Positions 2,633 to 20,025 of a stretch of DNA of 20,028 nt are shown in pieces. A program made the position numbers and the translations under genes. The first letter of the stretch is position 1. The number at the start of each line of letters is the position of its first letter. The notes beneath the pieces were generated by a model, which saw only the letters and a program-made list of their open reading frames with translations, did not search any database and was not told the DNA's origin. Origin of the DNA: a virus. The stretch lies in the IMG/VR virus record IMGVR_UViG_3300020439_000113, positions 1 through 20,028 of that record, one strand, 5' to 3'.

Positions 2633-3852
2633 CGTTAGTTAGAAGTTTGATGGACAAAGGCTTCTATGATGAGCATAGAGGTGCTAAATGTCCTGATAGA
2701 CTTTTTAGTAAAGATATAGGCAAGGTTAAGAAAGCTATTGATTATGCTATGGACAGATACAACAGAGATATCAGTCCTGATGAGATAGAAGCATTATTCA
2801 TGTCAAGCAATCCTAATCTAACAACTGCACAGAAACAAGCATATTCAATACTTTTTAATGATATTAAGAAAGAGCAACCATTAGGAAAAGATATAGCACA
2901 AGAAGTATTGTCAAAGTTGTTTCAAAGAGTTGTAGGAGAGGATGTAGCTAATCTAGGTTTTGAATATGTTAATGGCACACAATCAAGTTTAGAGCCATTA
3001 CGTATTCTGTTAGAACAACACAAAGACGATTTCACTCCTGATCTTAATGTGGATTGGGATGATATGGATATAGAGACTTTACTTCAGAAGAATGATCTTG
3101 AAGCAAGGTGGCATTTTAATTTACCATCTTTAACTAGACATATTAGTGGCATCAATGCAGGACACTTAATTGAAGTGGGTGCTAGACCAAATACAGGCAA
3201 GACTTCTTTTCATGCTAGTATTATTGCATCACCTGATGGTTTTGCAAAGCAAGGTGCTAATTGCATTGTCTTGTGTAATGAAGAGGGTAGTCACAGAGTA
3301 GGTGCTAGATATCTTACTGCGTCTACAGGTATGACTATGCAAGAGATAAAGAGAGATCCTACAAAAGCAAGAGACTTATATCAACCTGTAAAAGATTTAA
3401 TAAAGATTAAAGATGCCACAGGTAGAGATATGTCTTGGGTAGAAAGTGTGTGTAAATCATACAGTCCTGATATTGTAGTTTTAGATATGGGAGACAAGTT
3501 TGCTCGTACACAAGGATTTGCTAGACAAGATGAAGCACTCAAAGCAAATGCTATCCATGCTCGTATGATTGCTAAACAATATAATTGTGCTATATTTTAT
3601 ATGTCGCAGTTATCTGCAGATGCAGAGGGTAAAGTATTACTTAACCAATCTATGATGGAAGGCAGTCGTACAGGTAAAGCAGCAGAAGCAGACTTAATGA
3701 TCTTGATTGCAAAGAATCCACCAAAGCAAGATGATGATCCTGATAAAGAGGATTTACAAAGACACTTAAATGTGGTAAAGAATAAACTTACAGGATGGCA
3801 TGGCACAAGACATTGTACATTAAATTACAAGATTGGAAGATACGAACCATGA
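2623..3852 (+). CDS. Replicative DNA helicase (DnaB/T7 gp4B type)
   Basis: A 409-aa RecA-fold hexameric helicase that would unwind DNA 5'-3' ahead of the phage polymerase. Walker A is GARPNTGKT (186-194, Lys193), close to the DnaB form ARPxxGKT. Walker B is VVLDMGDK with Asp288. The following motif is YMSQLSAD with sensor Gln329, and GSRTGKAAEADLM (about 347-359) matches the last conserved DnaB box. The first 150 residues form a helical N-terminal region without zinc ligands. GGAG at 2611 precedes the ATG at proper distance, and the start overlaps the primase stop. It is shorter than the full primase-helicase of T7, as expected for a split gene. Its stop overlaps the next start (ATGA, 3849-3852). 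Confidence 0.9.
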   Translation: MEVALVRSLMDKGFYDEHRGAKCPDRLFSKDIGKVKKAIDYAMDRYNRDISPDEIEALFMSSNPNLTTAQKQAYSILFNDIKKEQPLGKDIAQEVLSKLFQRVVGEDVANLGFEYVNGTQSSLEPLRILLEQHKDDFTPDLNVDWDDMDIETLLQKNDLEARWHFNLPSLTRHISGINAGHLIEVGARPNTGKTSFHASIIASPDGFAKQGANCIVLCNEEGSHRVGARYLTASTGMTMQEIKRDPTKARDLYQPVKDLIKIKDATGRDMSWVESVCKSYSPDIVVLDMGDKFARTQGFARQDEALKANAIHARMIAKQYNCAIFYMSQLSADAEGKVLLNQSMMEGSRTGKAAEADLMILIAKNPPKQDDDPDKEDLQRHLNVVKNKLTGWHGTRHCTLNYKIGRYEP

Positions 3853-4289
3853 CACAACAAGAATTATTTGAAATAGAACTGAGTCACATAGATGGTGAAA
3901 CTAAAACTTGTAGCAAGTGTGAGAGAAGATTACCTTTATCTAGTTTTAGCGTATCTTCAGGTGCTAACTTTCTCAGACCTGAGTGTAAGAAATGCAATAA
4001 TGATTTAACTAAAGTTAGAAACAGATTGCGATACAAGTATGGTATGCCTGATAATAATTATCAATGCCCAATATGTAAGAAAGATGAGACAGAGGTGGCA
4101 GGAAAAGGTGGACAAAGAAATGGTGCTTGGGTCATAGATCATTGTCATGAATCAGAAACATTTAGAGGATGGTTATGCCATAGTTGTAATCGTTCTTTGG
4201 GTGGTTTCTTTGATAGTGTTGAATTTTTAAAAAGAGCTATAATATATTTAGAGAACCATAAGGAGACATTAAATGAAATTAACAATTGA
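3849..4289 (+). CDS. Recombination endonuclease VII-like HNH nuclease
   Basis: A 146-aa nuclease of the endonuclease VII type (T4 gp49 family), which cuts Holliday junctions, branched DNA and mismatched DNA before packaging. Two zinc modules are visible: Cys21, Cys24, Cys46, Cys49 at the N-terminus, then Cys73, Cys76, Cys110, Cys113 framing the active site. The active site DHCH (97-100) and the downstream CHSCNRSLGGF give the His-Me/HNH layout with Asn114. The start is the ATG at 3849, overlapping the helicase stop. An upstream extension to 3795 would run deep into the helicase gene. The first zinc module is extra compared with a minimal HNH domain and resembles small zinc knuckles often fused to phage HNH nucleases. 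Confidence 0.85.
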   Translation: MTQQELFEIELSHIDGETKTCSKCERRLPLSSFSVSSGANFLRPECKKCNNDLTKVRNRLRYKYGMPDNNYQCPICKKDETEVAGKGGQRNGAWVIDHCHESETFRGWLCHSCNRSLGGFFDSVEFLKRAIIYLENHKETLNEINN

Positions 4290-6291
4290 TGTAGAGAATA
4301 CAGTTACAAAGCGAGATGGTAAGATGCATCTTGATCCTTTTGAAGCAGATAACAAGTTAGTTATGGTAGGTTGCAGAACAGATAAAGGTGTTGAGTATCT
4401 GTATAACATGGACAGAGATGAAGAATCTGTGGTAGGCATACAAGAGTTATTAGATGCTACTACTATCCTAATTGGTCACAACATTGCATACGACTTGATG
4501 TGGCTTTGGGAGTCAGGTTTCAAGTATGATGGTGTTGTATTTGATACAATGTTAGCAGAGTACGTATTACAAAAAGGTATAAAGAAACCTTTATCTTTAG
4601 AAGCCTGTGCAGAGAGACACAACTTAAACACCAAGAAACAAGATACTCTAAAAGAATACTTTGCTAAAGGTGTCGGAGTAGATGAGATACCTAGAGATGA
4701 GTTATCAGAATATCTAAGTGCAGATTTAAAAGCAACACAAGAGTTGTGTGATCTTCAGTACAAAAGACTTAACTCTGTACAAGATGCAGGATTAATGGAG
4801 ACAGTTATATTTACCAATAAAGTTTGTGTAGCTTTAGCCAAGATATACAGAAGAGGTTTTAAGGTAGATATTGATACACTTAATGGTGTAAAAGAAGAGT
4901 TTGAAAAAGAGAAGCAAGAGATAGAGCTTAGGTTAAAAAAGCAAGTTAAAGAGATAATGGGAGACACTCCTATTAATTTAAATAGTCCTGAACAATTATC
5001 TTGGATAATCTACAGTAGAAAACCTAAAGATAAAACAACGTGGTTAAATAATTTTACACCTTACATGAGTAAAGATGATTTACTTAATAAAGTTAAATTA
5101 AACTCTGATATAATGTTTAGAACAGTAGCAGAAAGATGTAGCACCTGTTTTGGTACAGGTAGAATTAGAAAGGTAAAGAAAGATGGAACTCCTTATGCTA
5201 AACTACCCAAGTGTACTACTTGCAATAGTCTTGGGTACGTTTTTACTCCTACTAAAAAAGTAGCAGGATTTAGATTTAATCCACCTAATTATAAATGGAT
5301 TAGTGCAAATGGATTTAGTGTAAATAAAAAAATGCTAGATGTATTACAACACATGACAAAAAGAAAACAGTCTATGGTAGCATATAACTTTTTAACAGAT
5401 ATACAAAGGTTGTCTGCTCTAGATACATATTTATCCTCTTTTGTAGAGGGTATAAAGAGTTATACAAAGTCTGATGGTATGTTACACGTTAGACTATTAC
5501 AACACAGAACTGCGACAGGTAGATTTAGTGGAGCAGACCCTAATATGCAGAATATGCCTAGAGGTGGTACATTTCCTGTAAAGAAAGTATTTGTTTCTAG
5601 ATTTAAGAATGGAAAGATATTAGAGGCAGATTTTGCACAGTTAGAGTTTAGAACTGCTGCTTTCCTGTCGCAAGATAAAATAGCAATAAAGGAGATAAAT
5701 GATGGATTTGATGTGCATGACTATACTGCTCGTATTATTACTGATGCTGGGGAAGAGACTTCTCGCCAAGAAGCGAAAGCACACACGTTTGCACCCCTGT
5801 ACGGAGCAACAGGATTTGGCAGGTCGGCTGCTCAAGCTACATATTACAAACACTTCACAGAGAAGTACGAGGAGATCAGGTTATGGCACTCCCGATTGGC
5901 TAAAGAAGCTATAACTAAGAATGTAATAAAGATACCTTCAGGTAGAGAGTTTTCTTTTCCTGATGTTCAGAGAAGATCAAATGGATCAGTAACTAATTTT
6001 ACTCAGATAAAAAATTATCCTGTGCAAAGTTTTGCTACTGCAGACATAGTTCCTCTCATTTTGTTAGAGATAGATTCAAGACTAGAGCATATGAAGTCTT
6101 GTATTGTAAATACAGTACATGATTCAATAGTTATTGATGTACATCCTGACGAAGAAAAGCAAGTTAATTTTATCTTAACTGATGTTAATAATAATATGAA
6201 GAGTATTATAGATTCTCAGTATAATATTGATTTCAATGTACCATTGTTATTAGAATCAAAAATAGGAGACAATTGGCTTGACACAAAATAA
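4273..6291 (+). CDS. Family A DNA polymerase with 3'-5' exonuclease and zinc-finger insertion
   Basis: A 672-aa replicative polymerase of the Pol I/T7 gp5 family. The proofreading domain shows Exo I (Asp6, Glu8), Exo II (GHNIAYD, Asp74) and Exo III (Tyr147-x3-Asp151), all intact. The polymerase domain shows TATGRFSG (413-420), motif A with Asp453 (DFAQLEFR), motif B (Arg498, Lys502, Phe506, Tyr510) and motif C with His616-Asp617. The position equivalent to E. coli Phe762 is Phe506, unlike the Tyr of T7. Between exonuclease and palm, Cys289-x2-Cys292 and Cys314-x2-Cys317 form a zinc finger with the CxxCxGxG look of DnaJ. AAGGAG precedes the ATG, and the gene overlaps the endonuclease VII gene by 17 bases. 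Confidence 0.95.
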   Translation: MKLTIDVENTVTKRDGKMHLDPFEADNKLVMVGCRTDKGVEYLYNMDRDEESVVGIQELLDATTILIGHNIAYDLMWLWESGFKYDGVVFDTMLAEYVLQKGIKKPLSLEACAERHNLNTKKQDTLKEYFAKGVGVDEIPRDELSEYLSADLKATQELCDLQYKRLNSVQDAGLMETVIFTNKVCVALAKIYRRGFKVDIDTLNGVKEEFEKEKQEIELRLKKQVKEIMGDTPINLNSPEQLSWIIYSRKPKDKTTWLNNFTPYMSKDDLLNKVKLNSDIMFRTVAERCSTCFGTGRIRKVKKDGTPYAKLPKCTTCNSLGYVFTPTKKVAGFRFNPPNYKWISANGFSVNKKMLDVLQHMTKRKQSMVAYNFLTDIQRLSALDTYLSSFVEGIKSYTKSDGMLHVRLLQHRTATGRFSGADPNMQNMPRGGTFPVKKVFVSRFKNGKILEADFAQLEFRTAAFLSQDKIAIKEINDGFDVHDYTARIITDAGEETSRQEAKAHTFAPLYGATGFGRSAAQATYYKHFTEKYEEIRLWHSRLAKEAITKNVIKIPSGREFSFPDVQRRSNGSVTNFTQIKNYPVQSFATADIVPLILLEIDSRLEHMKSCIVNTVHDSIVIDVHPDEEKQVNFILTDVNNNMKSIIDSQYNIDFNVPLLLESKIGDNWLDTK

Positions 6292-6332: not shown

Positions 6333-7259
6333 TTGACAGAACTAACAACTATATCTACTGATAATTATGCCACTATGGCAAAAGCAATGGGATTATCCAC
6401 ACCTAAAAGTGGAGAATCTAAGAAAGTAAATAATCTTAATAGACTTAGAATATGGCATTCACCTATTATGGGTCAAGAAGAAGTTAATGGTAAAACTAGA
6501 AATGTAGAGGTAGTGCCTAGTGGCACATACAGACTTGAAGTAATAAATGGAGAGTCTTCATCTTACTACTACTCTACTAGTGCTACCATCAGACCTTTTA
6601 TGCAAAGATATATGTATAGAAGATATATTGCGTTTCCTAATGCAAAAGAGAATGAGCCAAAAGGGGAGTTTCATAGAACGATAATGTCTGATTCATTAAG
6701 TATTGATCTGAAAGATAATACAGGTCGTTTTAACTGTGGTAAACCTACAGGTTTCATAGAAGATTTCAAGTCTTTACCTACAGACACACAAGACTTAATA
6801 CGTCAAATAAAAAGAGTTCGTGTTGTGTTTGGTACAGTTCAAATGACTGACCCTGTAGATCAGAGTGGTGTTTCTCAAACTTTAGAGGAAGTTCCATTTA
6901 TTTGGGAGATAGATAATAAGACTGCATATAAGAATGTGGGAGATGCTTTTAATCTTTTTGCTAAGAGAGAAAGACTTCCATTGCAACATCATGTACAGTT
7001 AACTAAGCTAACTGAGAATCCACTACCAAATGGTTCTTGTTTTTATACACCTGAGACTTCTATAGACTTTTCTAAATCAATATCATTGTTACCAAAAGAC
7101 AATGAGACTTTTACTCATTTTCTTGATTGGATTAAAAACTATAATGATTATATCTACAAAGAGTGGGAAGAGAAAGCTAATGCTAGAAATAAGTCTGTGT
7201 CTGATGAAGACAAAGATGTAGTGGAAGAGTTTATTGATGTAGATACTGATGACGCATAG
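6333..7259 (+). CDS. Probable single-stranded DNA-binding protein (308 aa, TTG start)
   Basis: I infer an SSB role from context and shape, not from a clear motif. It follows the polymerase and precedes the exonuclease, has its own strong promoter and an ideal ribosome site (AAGGAG, 6321-6326), and ends in an acidic tail (EEFIDVDTDDA), as in T7 gp2.5 and bacterial SSB, where the tail contacts replication partners. The central region (about 60-230) is rich in beta-prone and aromatic segments such as SSSYYYSTSATIRPFMQRYMYRRY, suitable for stacking on DNA bases. The start codon is TTG, since no ATG lies near the ribosome site. The product is longer than T7 gp2.5 (232 aa). Alternatives are a recombination annealing protein or another abundant DNA-binding protein. 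Confidence 0.6.
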   Translation: MTELTTISTDNYATMAKAMGLSTPKSGESKKVNNLNRLRIWHSPIMGQEEVNGKTRNVEVVPSGTYRLEVINGESSSYYYSTSATIRPFMQRYMYRRYIAFPNAKENEPKGEFHRTIMSDSLSIDLKDNTGRFNCGKPTGFIEDFKSLPTDTQDLIRQIKRVRVVFGTVQMTDPVDQSGVSQTLEEVPFIWEIDNKTAYKNVGDAFNLFAKRERLPLQHHVQLTKLTENPLPNGSCFYTPETSIDFSKSISLLPKDNETFTHFLDWIKNYNDYIYKEWEEKANARNKSVSDEDKDVVEEFIDVDTDDA

Positions 7260-12426: not shown

Positions 12427-15400
12427 TTACTTAGGTGTTCTAAAAGGTTGTTTAACATTTCCTCTGATGTCAGTCATAACATTTCTACCTAACTCAAATA
12501 ATGATCTTAAATCATTTGCTTTATCTAAATTAGGCTCTCTATTAAATTGATTTTTAAAATAGTATTTAGCAGTTATTCTAGCTCTAGGACTCAATCTTTG
12601 ATATTTAATTAAGCCATCTAAAAGCTCTTCATTATTAGTTCTCTCTGCTTTTGCAAATGCCATAGATTCAGATTTTATGGATTTAACATACGTATCTAAA
12701 TACCCAATTATCTGCTGATCTTTCATCCCATGATTTACTCTTAAATCTCTTAAAAAGGTAGGAAATTCTACTTGCATTGTTTCTGCAGTAAGTTTATTAG
12801 CTTTTCTATTTGTCTCAGGAAAAGCAGACTTTGCCATAAAATCTTTATAGCTAAATCCTAATCTTCCTAATTCTATAATATAATCAGGTGGTGTTCTATT
12901 TAGAGTAGCACCCATTAATATTTTCATAAAAGGTAAAACTCTTTCAGGTATATTTGGGTCTTGAGGACTTCTCTGAAAAGGAACGTTTGGATCATTTATA
13001 AAAGCATCTATTCTTCTTTTAAATGGTAAACTAAACTCCTGAAAGAAAGCATTAAAACCTGTGCCTAAGTTTATTTCTCTTCCTAAAAAATCAATAGTTG
13101 TATTCTCATATATAGGGTCTTTTTTATAATCTCTTCTTCTCTGAGAATCAAATCTAACATCTCCAAATTGATATATAGGTTGCAAATATCCTGATGTTGC
13201 TTCTCCTAATATTCTTCCAAGAGCACCTAAACCTTTTTCAAATTCTTGATATTCTCCTTTAGACATATAGTCATAGAACTCAGATACTGTTTTTTCAACG
13301 CTATAAAAACTTCTAAAATTAGTTCCTGTTATACCCTCAAGAACTTCTTTTCCTTTTATTAGGTCTATACCTCTCTCTGCTCTGTGCATCATTTCACCTA
13401 TCAATAAGTAAGGAACTAATATAGGACCATATACTCTTGCATCAAACTCTCCAACAAGATTATCTTTTAATTTATACCACTCTGAACCTGCCACATCATT
13501 TTCAGGATCACGTAACATATAACCTAATGGAACTAAAAATGCTGATCCTGCTATGCCCTCTGCAGTTTGTCTATATGCTCCTTTACCTAAAAAATCTCCT
13601 TCTGTACTGAGAGCTTTCATTCTGTCTTTAAAGCTCCTACCTCCTGATATATCTGCCATTCTAGTCATTATTCTAAAAGCACCTGTTGCTGCTCCAAAAG
13701 CATTGTAATTGTATGCCATCTCCATAGCTTTAAACATAAATCTAGGGAAGGGTATACCTAAAGTTAATCCTGACTTAACAATAAAATTATTTAAAATCTT
13801 AAATGGTAAAAATTTTGGTTGGGCAGCAAAAGTAAATTCTAGAGCATCATCTACTGCTTTAGCCATCATATCATCTGTTACATCATCTAAAAATGTACCA
13901 CTTTCAAGAACTTCATCTATTGTTTTATTTTTAACTGCTAGTTGCCTTTCTAAAGAACCCATTAGAGCTCCTCGTCTAAACATTGACTCTTGAAATCTGT
14001 TAAACACATTAAAATGATGTATAGCACCTTCATATTTTTCTAAAACAGAGTCAACTCTTTTGTACAAAAATCCGGGTTTACCTATGTTATCTGTCCTTGT
14101 ATTAGACAATGCCTCTTGATTAGGTTTAGCTTTTTCCATTCTAGATTTTACTTCACTAAATTGATTCCACATTCTACGCTTTGCTTCTGCAAAATTATCA
14201 AGTAAAAAATCTGATATTATTGCAGCTTCTGAATTATCTCTCATAGTATATTTCATTTGAGCAAATGTGCCTCTAAATGTAAATTTTTTAGTTGGATCTA
14301 ATATATCTTCAAATCCTGCAATAATAGAATCTATTGCAAGTCTTGGAAACTGTGCATATCCATTTCTCATGGCAGTAGCAACACCTGACACAAGTGCAGC
14401 TCTACGAGCATTTTCTAATCGCACAACTACTTCACCAAAACGACTTTGTACTGCTACTGCTGCTTTTTCTTCTGCTAATTCTTCAGGAGTAACTTTTCTA
14501 TTTGCTCTACTTATTTTTTGTGGTAATTTAGATATTAAACTTAATGTTCCACCTGCTCTACTAGTGTGTGACAATACCATCGCAGCAAAGTCTTTGCTTG
14601 ACACACCATATTGACCTAGTATTTGAAAAGGTATATCTTTATTAATGTGATCACTTAATAGTATTTTAAATATTCTATCAGAGATCATTTCTTCTTTTCT
14701 GAGTGGTTTTAATAAATCTTTGACTACATTTATATCTCCACCTTCTGCTACTAACGATTCTATATTTTTATTTGCAACATCAAATATATCTGTTATACCA
14801 CCAACAACTCTTGAAAATACATCAAAATCTAATGCAGGTTCAGTTATTTCGTTCTCTGCACCTACTCTTCTTATTTCTAATCTACCTGCATTTTTAATTA
14901 TTTCTTTATCTACTCCTGTAACTTTGCCACTTTTATTTCTTATAATAGCACCTGTGCCAAAAGTATCTTCAATATCTTTTACAAAACTATCTTCAATTCC
15001 TGCACTGATTTGTTTTTTCTGTTCTATAGTCTTTTGTGCTTTCTTTGTTTGAGCTTCTCTAACCTTTTTTACTGCACCATCTATTCTTTCTTTTAACGTT
15101 CCTACATCAGATTTTAGTGCATTTCTAGTAGCAAATCCACTTAATGTTCCTGATACAAGAGCAGATGTTCCCATCACTGTAGCAGTTCTGAGAGGATCAT
15201 AATTCTCTCTTATACCCATTTCTTTTTCTGCACCTTGAACAACAACGTCAACTACACCTGCTTGTGTAGCATCAATAGCTCCTGTTGTTGCAGCACTTAA
15301 TAATATCTGAGTAACAGTTTTTCCTGCAAGTTTTTTACCTGCATACTTTAAAACTTCTTTACCTGCACCTAAAGATATTAAAGATAAAGGAGCAGATATG

Positions 15401-15981
15401 TTAGCTGCAATATGTCCACCAACAGTATCTACAATGTCAAATAACTCTTCTCCAACATTCATACCTTCAAATCGTTTTGTTTCAAATATTGTGGCTAAAT
15501 TGTTTGTTTTTCTATATATTCTAGCAGCTCTTGCTTTTATTTCACCAAACTTTTTAGCTTCATTCTGAAATCTTATTCTTTGTATATCATTAGTTGCATT
15601 ATTAGCCTTTTCAATAGCTTCTTGCTCTTTTCTTGTAGTGTCTTTTAGCCAATCTAATTCTGCTACTGCATTCATTTCATTTGATGTAATAAATCTATAA
15701 TTGTCAATCATATCATCGACTAGATTTTCTTTATTCAAATCTCCTTTTAAAAAAGGCAATGTAAAGACATTCGTTCCAACATCTTTTTTAGTACCAAATC
15801 TGTCTTCTCTATATTGAAGTACATCATTGAAATACTCATCGTCATTTATTAAGTCTTTTTTGGAGAGAGTTTGTTGAGGTTGTTGGTCAACCTTTTCTAC
15901 AGGAGTTGTAGTTATTTGAGGGGGTACAACAGGTTGTTGATTGAAACCTAATTCATCATCTGTTCTATTTTGTAGAGACAT
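12427..15981 (-). CDS. Very large internal virion/DNA-ejection-type protein (1184 aa)
   Basis: The last gene of the - strand block; AAGGCAAC stands before the ATG. The N-terminus is disordered and Q/P-rich (about 1-45). A charged helical region follows (100-170), then a Gly/Ala-rich hydrophobic region (about 180-285, including APLSLISLGAGKEV and GTSALVSGTLSG) that could insert in a membrane. Further hydrophobic patches lie near 800 (GIAGSAFLVPLGYML) and 855 (YGPILVPYLLIGEM). Size and position after a coiled-coil gene recall T7 gp16, which is ejected into the cell to help build the DNA channel. I see no lytic transglycosylase motif, so the wall-cutting role of T7 gp16 is not supported. Other possibilities are a large minor structural protein or a polyvalent injected protein. 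Confidence 0.6.
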   Translation of the reverse strand: MSLQNRTDDELGFNQQPVVPPQITTTPVEKVDQQPQQTLSKKDLINDDEYFNDVLQYREDRFGTKKDVGTNVFTLPFLKGDLNKENLVDDMIDNYRFITSNEMNAVAELDWLKDTTRKEQEAIEKANNATNDIQRIRFQNEAKKFGEIKARAARIYRKTNNLATIFETKRFEGMNVGEELFDIVDTVGGHIAANISAPLSLISLGAGKEVLKYAGKKLAGKTVTQILLSAATTGAIDATQAGVVDVVVQGAEKEMGIRENYDPLRTATVMGTSALVSGTLSGFATRNALKSDVGTLKERIDGAVKKVREAQTKKAQKTIEQKKQISAGIEDSFVKDIEDTFGTGAIIRNKSGKVTGVDKEIIKNAGRLEIRRVGAENEITEPALDFDVFSRVVGGITDIFDVANKNIESLVAEGGDINVVKDLLKPLRKEEMISDRIFKILLSDHINKDIPFQILGQYGVSSKDFAAMVLSHTSRAGGTLSLISKLPQKISRANRKVTPEELAEEKAAVAVQSRFGEVVVRLENARRAALVSGVATAMRNGYAQFPRLAIDSIIAGFEDILDPTKKFTFRGTFAQMKYTMRDNSEAAIISDFLLDNFAEAKRRMWNQFSEVKSRMEKAKPNQEALSNTRTDNIGKPGFLYKRVDSVLEKYEGAIHHFNVFNRFQESMFRRGALMGSLERQLAVKNKTIDEVLESGTFLDDVTDDMMAKAVDDALEFTFAAQPKFLPFKILNNFIVKSGLTLGIPFPRFMFKAMEMAYNYNAFGAATGAFRIMTRMADISGGRSFKDRMKALSTEGDFLGKGAYRQTAEGIAGSAFLVPLGYMLRDPENDVAGSEWYKLKDNLVGEFDARVYGPILVPYLLIGEMMHRAERGIDLIKGKEVLEGITGTNFRSFYSVEKTVSEFYDYMSKGEYQEFEKGLGALGRILGEATSGYLQPIYQFGDVRFDSQRRRDYKKDPIYENTTIDFLGREINLGTGFNAFFQEFSLPFKRRIDAFINDPNVPFQRSPQDPNIPERVLPFMKILMGATLNRTPPDYIIELGRLGFSYKDFMAKSAFPETNRKANKLTAETMQVEFPTFLRDLRVNHGMKDQQIIGYLDTYVKSIKSESMAFAKAERTNNEELLDGLIKYQRLSPRARITAKYYFKNQFNREPNLDKANDLRSLFELGRNVMTDIRGNVKQPFRTPK

Positions 15982-17852: not shown

Positions 17853-18062
17853 TTACTGTTCTCCAATATCCATATTCTTTTTAAAAGCATCTCTTATAAC
17901 TTTTACATAACGAGTTGTTTTGTCTATGTCTTCTGACATATCAGATTCAGGTCTTTTCAGTAAACTTTCTCTCTTAGTTTCTGTAGGACTATTGTTCATT
18001 TTTTTTACTTTTTGGTCAATAGAAAACCATGATCTACGATTGGCTTGAATATAACTTGTCAT
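17853..18062 (-). CDS. Small hypothetical protein (69 aa)
   Basis: Starts 29 bases inside the 3' end of the 663-aa gene, in the +1 frame relative to it, and stops just before the ATG of the 175-aa gene. A modest AGG site stands about nine bases upstream. The product is basic and polar (YIQANRRSWFSIDQKVKKMNN, then KRESLLKRPESDMSEDIDK, then TTRYVKVIRDAFKKN), with no membrane segment or known motif. A later ATG (residue 22) is possible but has no ribosome site. Tight fit on both sides supports it being a real gene in the virion operon. Confidence 0.65.
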   Translation of the reverse strand: MTSYIQANRRSWFSIDQKVKKMNNSPTETKRESLLKRPESDMSEDIDKTTRYVKVIRDAFKKNMDIGEQ

Positions 18063-20025
18063 TTTTAATACCTATCTTCTTTTCTTTTTCAGTTATCATA
18101 TCCATGAAATAACGAATAATAGATTTGATTCTAGGTTTGTTTTTAATAAACTTAGCAAACCTTTCACCATATCTCTTATATATCCACACGAACCATTTTG
18201 GAGCATCTAAGTCTAACCAATTTTTAAACTTAACCCATCTAACATCTTGAGCACCATAAACTTCTCTAGCTACCCAACATAACCAACTACCAACTAAAGA
18301 ATCTGCACCTGCAGTTAAAATAGTTCCAACCATAGAACCTAACCCTGATGCTGCTTTTGCATCTGCTTCCATTTCTCTTGATTTCATCAAAGAGTCTGCT
18401 TGTATGTTTGCAGTTGCTAATTTATTAATTCTATCTAATTCACTCTCTGCACTTGTCCATGCCCACTCCATAGTATCTGAATAGTATTGCCATAAATTAT
18501 CATAGGCTTGTTTTGATACATCTAGTATTGCATTTGCATTTATTTCATTAGCTCTATTTATCGCTGCAGTATCTGCAGTAGCAATCTCTCTTCTCCATAC
18601 TGCATTATTTTGTGCTATAGCTAATTGATTTTGTGCATTAAATTGATCACGTTGATTGTTAAGTTCTGCATTAAATCTTTCTACAGTATTAGCTTGACCT
18701 GCATTAAACTGTGCTTGTGCATTTGCTTGTGTCGCATTATACTGTCCTATTTGAGTTGCTAGATTAGCAAAAAACTGATCAACCTGATTCTGTGATGTAG
18801 CGTTAAATTGTCTACTTGCGTTTTCTGCAGCTTGATCTGTTAATAAAGATTGTATCCTCTGTTGAGATTTAAACAAGTTTGTTTGTTGAGTATTAGAGAG
18901 ATTAGCCATATCTCTTTGTAAAAATGCTTGTGCGTTTTGAACTGAGGCTTGTTGTCTATTATTAAGATTAGACATATCAAGATTAGCTAAAGCAGATGCT
19001 TCTGCTATTACTAAAGCCTGTCTATTAGATAGATTATTTAAATTCATAGTGTTAGCTAATTTACTGTTCTCTAATGCTATTTGTTGATCTGCAGTAAAAT
19101 TTTGATTAGCTATGTCTGCTATTCTAGATGCATTTTGAACTCTAGATTGAAACTCTTGATCAAACTCTAATCCTATAAAATTAGCTCTTTGTTGAGCAGC
19201 TAACATAGCACGTTGTTGTCTGTTAGACAGATTCTGTGTCTCAAACTGTGCTTGTATTTGTGCATCTGCTTGTGCAATAGGTAGTGCAGATTCCATTGCA
19301 GCTTGAACAAGTGCCTGTCCTGCAATACTAGAAGCACCAAGACCTCTTTGTTGCATTACTGCTTGAACACCTCTTATTGCACCTGCTGCCCATGCAGGAG
19401 GATTTGTTGCATCAAAGTTTGCAGTTAATAATCCTAGTTGCCCTGCTACAGATGCTTTGTCAGTAGGGGTAGCAGTTGCTGCTTCCACTTGTTCAGTAAA
19501 TGTTTTAGCACGTTCTGCATTAGCAGTAGAGCTTATTAATTCTCCTGCCTGTATCTCTCTTTGAGTTGGATTATTTATTAAAGTAGCATTACCTTGAGCT
19601 GCGTTTAAATTACCTACACTAGAGGCTATTTGTTGTGCTGCAGTAACTTGTGCTCTTGGATCATCAGGAGTAGTTTGAGCAGCTTGGGTTGCATCTAAAG
19701 CAGTTTCAACAGATTCAGTAACTTGATCTGCAGTCATCAAATTAGCAGGAGTTTCTTGTCTTTGTTGGACACCTGTTGTTGTAGCCATTGTGGTAGGAAC
19801 AGATACTAATCCTTGCATAAGACCTGTATTTGGATCAATGTATTGTTCTTGTGTTTGCCCTATACCTACAGGTTGTGCCACACCTCCTACAGGCAATGCA
19901 GGTTGTTGCATTCTTGTTGCAGTAACCTCGCCTATTGCTGCAGAGGAATTGGGAGTGCCACCCTCTTGCATCTTAACAACACCACCACGAGCCATTTGTT
20001 TTGCAGCTTCTTCGTAGACAACCAT
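18034..20025 (-). CDS. Q/N/A-rich hendecad-repeat virion protein (663 aa, 5' end possibly cut off)
   Basis: The first ATG in view is three bases from the window edge, so the true start may lie outside. The early segment MARGGVVKMQEGGTP resembles an internal motif of other phage proteins rather than a start. Residues 1-260 are low-complexity, rich in T, Q and A. Residues 266-472 are built of 11-residue repeats, giving a very long helix. Residues 560-580 are Gly/Ala-rich and weakly hydrophobic. The C-terminal domain (about 580-642) carries WLCWVAREVYG, then WVKFKNWL, APKWF and YGERFAKFIKNKPRIK, a motif set I recall at the ends of other marine-phage structural proteins, role unknown. Position before coiled-coil and giant proteins suggests an internal core or ejection protein like T7 gp14. 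A fibre or appendage protein is the alternative. Confidence 0.55.
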   Translation of the reverse strand: MVVYEEAAKQMARGGVVKMQEGGTPNSSAAIGEVTATRMQQPALPVGGVAQPVGIGQTQEQYIDPNTGLMQGLVSVPTTMATTTGVQQRQETPANLMTADQVTESVETALDATQAAQTTPDDPRAQVTAAQQIASSVGNLNAAQGNATLINNPTQREIQAGELISSTANAERAKTFTEQVEAATATPTDKASVAGQLGLLTANFDATNPPAWAAGAIRGVQAVMQQRGLGASSIAGQALVQAAMESALPIAQADAQIQAQFETQNLSNRQQRAMLAAQQRANFIGLEFDQEFQSRVQNASRIADIANQNFTADQQIALENSKLANTMNLNNLSNRQALVIAEASALANLDMSNLNNRQQASVQNAQAFLQRDMANLSNTQQTNLFKSQQRIQSLLTDQAAENASRQFNATSQNQVDQFFANLATQIGQYNATQANAQAQFNAGQANTVERFNAELNNQRDQFNAQNQLAIAQNNAVWRREIATADTAAINRANEINANAILDVSKQAYDNLWQYYSDTMEWAWTSAESELDRINKLATANIQADSLMKSREMEADAKAASGLGSMVGTILTAGADSLVGSWLCWVAREVYGAQDVRWVKFKNWLDLDAPKWFVWIYKRYGERFAKFIKNKPRIKSIIRYFMDMITEKEKKIGIKNDKLYSSQS
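18610..19230 (-). repeat. Tandem 11/22-residue (33/66-base) coding repeats
   Basis: Within the 663-aa protein, six 22-residue units start at residues 266, 288, 310, 332, 354 and 376, four of them opening with LSNRQ, LNNRQ or LSNTQ. A second array follows in shifted phase: Phe or Tyr at 407, 418, 429, 440, 451 and 462, exactly 11 apart, mostly reading (F/Y)NAx(3-4)N and ending in Gln. The period is visible in protein but degenerate in DNA, so it is old or selected rather than a recent duplication. Confidence 0.8.

Follow-up and report, generated by a model that had tools for sequence, protein, structure and literature searches.

We found that the cysteine-rich insert of the family A DNA polymerase encoded in the window (the whole 20,028-nucleotide stretch of viral DNA that was analysed) is placed by modelling and alignment within the thumb tip of the enzyme, and that it resembles one half of the DnaJ zinc domain, with two CxxC knuckles separated by a strongly basic linker. 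It is almost certain that this is the polymerase of an HMO-2011-type marine phage and that its cysteines constitute the DnaJ-like zinc module already known from that group. The presence of a 'partial DnaJ central domain' flanked by the exonuclease and polymerase domains is a published mark of HMO-2011-type phages (PMC9038755, PMC6918029, PMC8528129), and one of these three papers reports it from isolates and 207 metagenomic genomes, together with more than 2,000 HMO-2011-type polymerase sequences. The first-pass annotation, which had treated the module as unreported, was thus mistaken on this point. What is new here is the single-site match to DnaJ motifs 2 and 3, the placement between thumb helices H1 and H2, the always-basic linker, the relaxed second motif and C314D subclade, and the acidic-tailed protein encoded downstream; a limited search of the open-access literature found no paper on the function of the insert. 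These phages are among the most abundant in the ocean, and the insert serves as a marker for recognising them.

The family A identity of the ORF at 4273-6291 is secure from its Pfam matches to DNA_pol_A (2e-52) and DNA_pol_A_exo1 (1e-6). An AlphaFold2 model built from 42 homologues (mean pLDDT 86.9, pTM 0.82) and alignments with related polymerases were used to delineate the following features:

4273-6291, + strand: family A DNA polymerase, 672 aa, HMO-2011-type (Pfam DNA_pol_A and DNA_pol_A_exo1; 62.8% identity to HMO-2011 DNAP)
4327-4752, + strand: 3'-5' exonuclease domain, residues 19-160 (PF01612 match)
4870-4959, + strand: thumb helix H, residues 200-229 (AlphaFold2/DSSP; alignment to Pol I)
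4987-5013, + strand: thumb helix H1, residues 239-247, within NLNSPEQLSWIIY (AlphaFold2; equals Pol I NLSSTKQLQTILF)
5014-5310, + strand: inserted segment, predicted H1-H2 loop at the thumb tip, residues 248-346 (alignment with Pol I, StenR_269 and other polymerases; pLDDT 64-90)
5116-5136, + strand: strand 1 of the hairpin bearing the putative zinc knuckles, residues 282-288 (DSSP on models)
5137-5160, + strand: putative zinc knuckle 1, CSTCFGTG, residues 289-296 (sequence; both Cys in 185/185 homologues)
5161-5211, + strand: basic 17-residue linker, residues 297-313, RIRKVKKDGTPYAKLPK, net +6 (length, charge, invariant residues)
5212-5235, + strand: putative zinc knuckle 2, CTTCNSLG, residues 314-321, relaxed form (C317 in 185/185, C314 in 182/185)
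5236-5262, + strand: hairpin strand 2, residues 322-330 (DSSP on models)
5326-5463, + strand: thumb helices H2 (352-364) and I (368-397), which follow the insert (AlphaFold2/DSSP)
5305-6279, + strand: polymerase core, palm and fingers, residues 345-669 (PF00476 match)

Translation of the ORF placed Cys289/Cys292 and Cys314/Cys317 where the first-pass annotation had them, within residues 289-318 (CSTCFGTGRIRKVKKDGTPYAKLPKCTTCN), which are encoded by window positions 5137-5226. The first knuckle has exactly the CxxCxGxG form ascribed to it and is the only one with the full motif; the second lacks the first glycine and keeps the last. When the protein was shuffled 20,000 times, CxxCxGxG arose 6 times and the complete two-knuckle module never. 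Three IMG/VR scans yielded 185 full-length homologues, with identities to the window protein as low as 38-40% in the aligned subset. The residues C289, C292, C317, G296 and G321 are present in all of them, and C314 is replaced by Asp in three. Close homologues lacking the four cysteines, which the first-pass annotation had named as grounds for refuting the module, were thus looked for and did not refute it (182 of 185 retain all four), and the sequence comparisons confirm the module as real and not a chance occurrence. A larger set of 233 distinct sequences, deliberately enriched for the C314D variant, has all four cysteines in 218 and C314D in 15. Ten loci on cellular genome contigs, mostly short contigs of marine MAGs, also carry copies, which are more likely to be binned or packaged phage than host genes. 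The same phage-like contigs (L262, L263, L267 and L268) recur in MAGs as unrelated as Flavobacteriales TMED123 and Neomarinimicrobiota MED589, which points to phage contamination of the bins.

The likeness to DnaJ was seen in both sequence and fold comparisons. The PF00684 model (DnaJ central domain) matched residues 286-325 with an e-value of 0.014 against all of Pfam, a weak match below the curated cut-off, and with 2.5e-5 in a search of the whole record; it matched each of 42 diverse homologues at E <= 0.1, the best at 1e-5. When a profile of the insert was run against PDB sequences, the best match was the zinc domain of E. coli DnaJ (1exk), weakly (E 0.058) and over motifs 2 and 3, with a further weak match to phage antitermination protein Q. 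The insert modelled alone drew in DNAJA2 as the best Foldseek match (probability 0.99, rmsd 2.7 over 40 columns, E 0.13), followed at lower significance by anti-TRAP and the zinc modules of UvrA. The 1exk and DNAJA2 matches uphold the earlier description of a DnaJ-like zinc module, and together suggest that it corresponds to half of a DnaJ domain, namely motifs 2 and 3, with one predicted zinc site, not two, that would be equivalent to Zn centre II. As in the cysteine-rich domain of DnaJ/Hsp40 proteins (PF00684; 1exk, 7zhs), CxxC(x)Gx(G) knuckles are borne on a beta-hairpin. However, the window module has two motifs and one predicted zinc site as against four and two, its linker is basic, and it resides in a polymerase without a J domain or substrate-binding domain. 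No Pfam match to a J domain with its HPD motif was obtained in the polymerase, and the DnaJ likeness is confined to the zinc module. The modules of anti-TRAP, protein Q and UvrA share the single-site arrangement of two CxxC knuckles on a hairpin, but the proteins that house them are unrelated and function in TRAP binding, transcription antitermination and DNA-damage recognition.

Several lines of evidence assign the window to the HMO-2011-type group. The best GenBank match of the polymerase, over its full length, is the DNAP of Puniceispirillum phage HMO-2011, whose record annotates PF00684 inside the polymerase; the identity of 62.8% exceeds the 38% that CRP-3, a member of the group, shows to the same query, and the tree places the window polymerase among the HMO-2011-type group. 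The hallmarks of the group found here are a family A polymerase with a 3'-5' exonuclease domain (Pfam), a partial DnaJ central domain (PF00684) that separates the exonuclease from the polymerase domain, and a relationship to HMO-2011 in both sequence and gene order. The order is that of HMO-2011, running integrase, primase, helicase, polymerase, unknown, Cas4-type exonuclease, endonuclease I, MazG-like and RNR; as in descriptions of the group (PMC9038755, PMC6918029), the integrase lies ahead of the replication module. The record is a 20-kb fragment that ends before most structural genes, and no terminase or capsid gene was identified within it. The window polymerase thus shares family, domain order, insert, cysteines and neighbourhood with HMO-2011 gp12 and the polymerases of CRP-1/2/3, HTVC033P and others (PMC9038755, PMC6918029), but belongs to a separate uncultured clade whose nearest GenBank relative is the HMO-2011 enzyme, and has an additional endonuclease VII-like gene between helicase and polymerase. 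Across 50,697 phage records, convincing scores for the module were confined to HMO-2011-type DNAPs, the next matches (E 0.4 and worse) being a dnaJ, dUTPase-type and hypothetical proteins.

It should be noted that the published criterion is worded as two CXXCXGXG motifs, and that the literal second motif is absent not just from the window protein but also from published members, namely CRP-345 (CTECDARG), CRP-2/CRP-603 (CKDCDARG) and CRP-207 (CKDCDTRG). Given that these members fail the literal rule too, the rule as applied means CxxCxxxG. Among our homologues, 131 of 184 have CxxCxGxG as the second motif and 53 do not. Consequently, surveys keyed to two literal CXXCXGXG motifs would miss real members, both those with the relaxed second motif and those of the C314D subclade.

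In the AlphaFold2 model the knuckles form the tip of a beta-hairpin that belongs to a segment of about 97 residues between H1 and H2; the order of elements is H (200-229), H1 (239-247), insert (248-346), H2 (352-364) and I (368-397). In the alignment with E. coli Pol I, NLNSPEQLSWIIY falls opposite NLSSTKQLQTILF of helix H1, the NxxS/H1 motif anchors the same placement in StenR_269, MEP402, ICP2 and others, and the polymerase of phage StenR_269, an insert-free relative with a single StenR_269-like locus in IMG/VR, aligns cleanly across the gap. Given that H and H1 precede the insert and H2 and I follow it, and given the clean StenR_269 alignment and the Pol I H1 match, the model and alignments put the insert in the H1-H2 loop, inside the thumb tip and one helix past the site of the T7 thioredoxin-binding loop. 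This corrects the first-pass annotation, which had located the module after the thumb helices. Its further statements, that the module is not at the T7 thioredoxin-loop position and that Pol I and T7 gp5 lack it, held good: the insert follows H1, and no CxxC occurs in T7 gp5 or the Klenow part of E. coli Pol I. In T7 the H1 motif is FNPSS (residue 334), and the thioredoxin-binding domain precedes it, between helices H and H1, whereas the window insert comes after H1. A forced global alignment to T7 gp5 did overlay the insert on the T7 loop, pairing FNPPN with FNPSS. This placement was rejected on two grounds: in the relatives it is NLNSPEQL that forms the true H1 motif, and StenR_269, which has no insert, aligns cleanly. 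Nor does FNPPNYKW represent the helix H1 NxxS motif. The two insertions are alike as basic elements at the thumb tip of a phage family A polymerase, but that of T7 requires host thioredoxin, while that of the window has cysteine knuckles. A search of seven HMO-2011-type records, fragments among them, found no phage-encoded thioredoxin.

Several cysteine-free relatives (ICP2, MEP402, H4/4, Lullwater and others) have in this gap loops bearing K-x-G-K-x-x-G-x-x-K, and this short alignment suggests that the basic turn may predate the zinc knuckles. In ICP2, MEP402, QDWS535 and VP41s3 (L086, L087, L257 and L261), the family A polymerase is split into two ORFs, just past the PNLQN motif and ahead of the catalytic palm motif.

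The linker between the knuckles is typified by a fixed length and a strong positive charge: it spans 17 residues in 184 of 184 homologues, every one of which gives it a net charge of +4 to +6, compared with +1 for the equivalent stretch of E. coli DnaJ. Its consensus is K-x-K-K-D-G-x-P-Y/F; K303 and G305 never vary, and K300 hardly does. The isolate CRP-738 is exceptional in having a longer linker, which is basic all the same. A pattern scan for KDPxCNGLGY, in which Asp replaces C314, recovered 24 IMG/VR contigs, each with a His at residue 323, 325 or both; the loci of this subclade are L009, L041, L055 and L205-L226. Both Asp and His commonly coordinate zinc, and the site in these proteins may therefore have exchanged ligands instead of having been lost, though this is suggestive only since the sequences are related and may represent one event.

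From the sequence, conservation, predicted secondary structure and fold position observed for the module, we infer zinc occupancy, DNA contact and a contribution to processivity. We propose that zinc would clamp the base of the strongly basic loop at the end of the beta-hairpin between H1 and H2, making the thumb tip a longer and stiffer arm. Such an arm could lie along the duplex leaving the active site and touch its backbone, which would raise DNA affinity and processivity. On balance we consider it probable that the zinc-stapled hairpin grips duplex DNA in this manner. Pointing in this direction are the charge of the linker in every homologue counted, set against that of DnaJ, and the basic loop of the cysteine-free relatives in the same H1-H2 gap, though the latter likeness is short and could reflect chance or convergence. 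A Klenow fragment from which the equivalent thumb-tip residues are deleted has a lower affinity for DNA and is less processive. The T7 loop touches the DNA backbone through basic residues (PMC5984650), and T7 gp5 would represent a parallel in which the same job is done by a thumb loop with host thioredoxin. Plant organellar DNA polymerases also have Lys-rich thumb insertions thought to be poised on dsDNA (PMC7699545), but these are not homologous, are not described as binding zinc, and are associated with lesion bypass and end joining. The thumb-tip site, beside the T7 processivity loop, turns the 'partial DnaJ domain' into a testable claim on copying without a known processivity factor. A fuller version, which we put forward tentatively and hold to be rather doubtful as a whole, is that the arm is a built-in replacement for thioredoxin or a clamp, that it possibly docks the acidic tail of the phage's own SSB, and that the zinc site of the subclade is now formed by three Cys with Asp or His.

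The main rival concerns the product of the gene directly downstream:

6333-7259, + strand: protein of unknown family, 308 aa, with an acidic C-terminal tail (no family match)
7191-7256, + strand: acidic tail KSVSDEDKDVVEEFIDVDTDDA (last 22 residues, net -8)

The module might instead dock a replisome protein, be it the acidic tail of this protein, the helicase or the primase, and thereby couple the polymerase to the fork. The basic patch could equally well bind an acidic protein tail, and the tail in question is acidic in all 135 homologous loci examined (net -3 to -11 over the last 22 residues) and the most acidic among the 15 window ORFs compared. The thioredoxin-binding domain of T7 polymerase is itself a docking site for the acidic tail of the T7 SSB (PMC7699545). 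Moreover, proteins are frequent partners of DnaJ-like zinc modules (anti-TRAP, PMC2896485), and by analogy with DnaJ, anti-TRAP and BSD2, in which protein binding is the main role, this would weigh against a grip on DNA. However, searches with the downstream protein, in which C135-G136 is invariant, found no match in PDB, Pfam or PHROGs profiles and detected no SSB homology, so that to call it a possible SSB-like partner is a guess; several T7-like relatives lack the zinc module and yet presumably bind their SSB. We regard docking as rather unlikely to be the function of the module, while noting that it and the DNA grip are not mutually exclusive.

A mainly structural role, in which zinc steadies a long loop of historical origin with no separate function, appears improbable. 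Related polymerases do fill the H1-H2 gap with cysteine-free loops of varied length, and the replacement of C314 by Asp with a nearby His in one subclade indicates that some variation of the zinc site is tolerated. Yet the linker length of 17 and the basic residues are nearly as strict as the cysteines, and a mere staple needs neither. It is even harder to credit that the module acts like Zn centre II of DnaJ and recruits host DnaK so that the phage replisome is loaded or remodelled. The alignment to DnaJ motifs 2 and 3, a report, cited in PMC4428491, that Zn centre II of DnaJ is necessary for the DnaK interaction, and the analogy of phage lambda, which needs DnaJ/DnaK (PMC9038755), are offset by the missing J domain, by a linker that is basic and not DnaJ-like, and by the single-site modules of anti-TRAP and phage Q proteins, which are not chaperone recruiters. 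That the four cysteines are a chance pattern binding no metal, a reading favoured by the weakness of the Pfam match in the window protein alone, is very unlikely: chance is refuted by their near-invariance in homologues down to 37% identity, and the shuffling result also speaks against it.

The DNA-grip proposal aside, a few other genes of the window deserve mention. The gene at 3795-4289 (+), between helicase and polymerase, encodes an endonuclease VII-like protein (PF02945, 5e-15) and is probably a homing-type insertion; no such gene separates helicase from polymerase in HMO-2011 and HTVC033P, where these two genes overlap directly. On the opposite strand, 12427-15981 (-) encodes an 1184-aa protein without a PHROGs match, probably a virion protein, and 18034-20025 (-) encodes a 663-aa protein whose translation contains many NLSNRQQ / NxxNRQ repeats.
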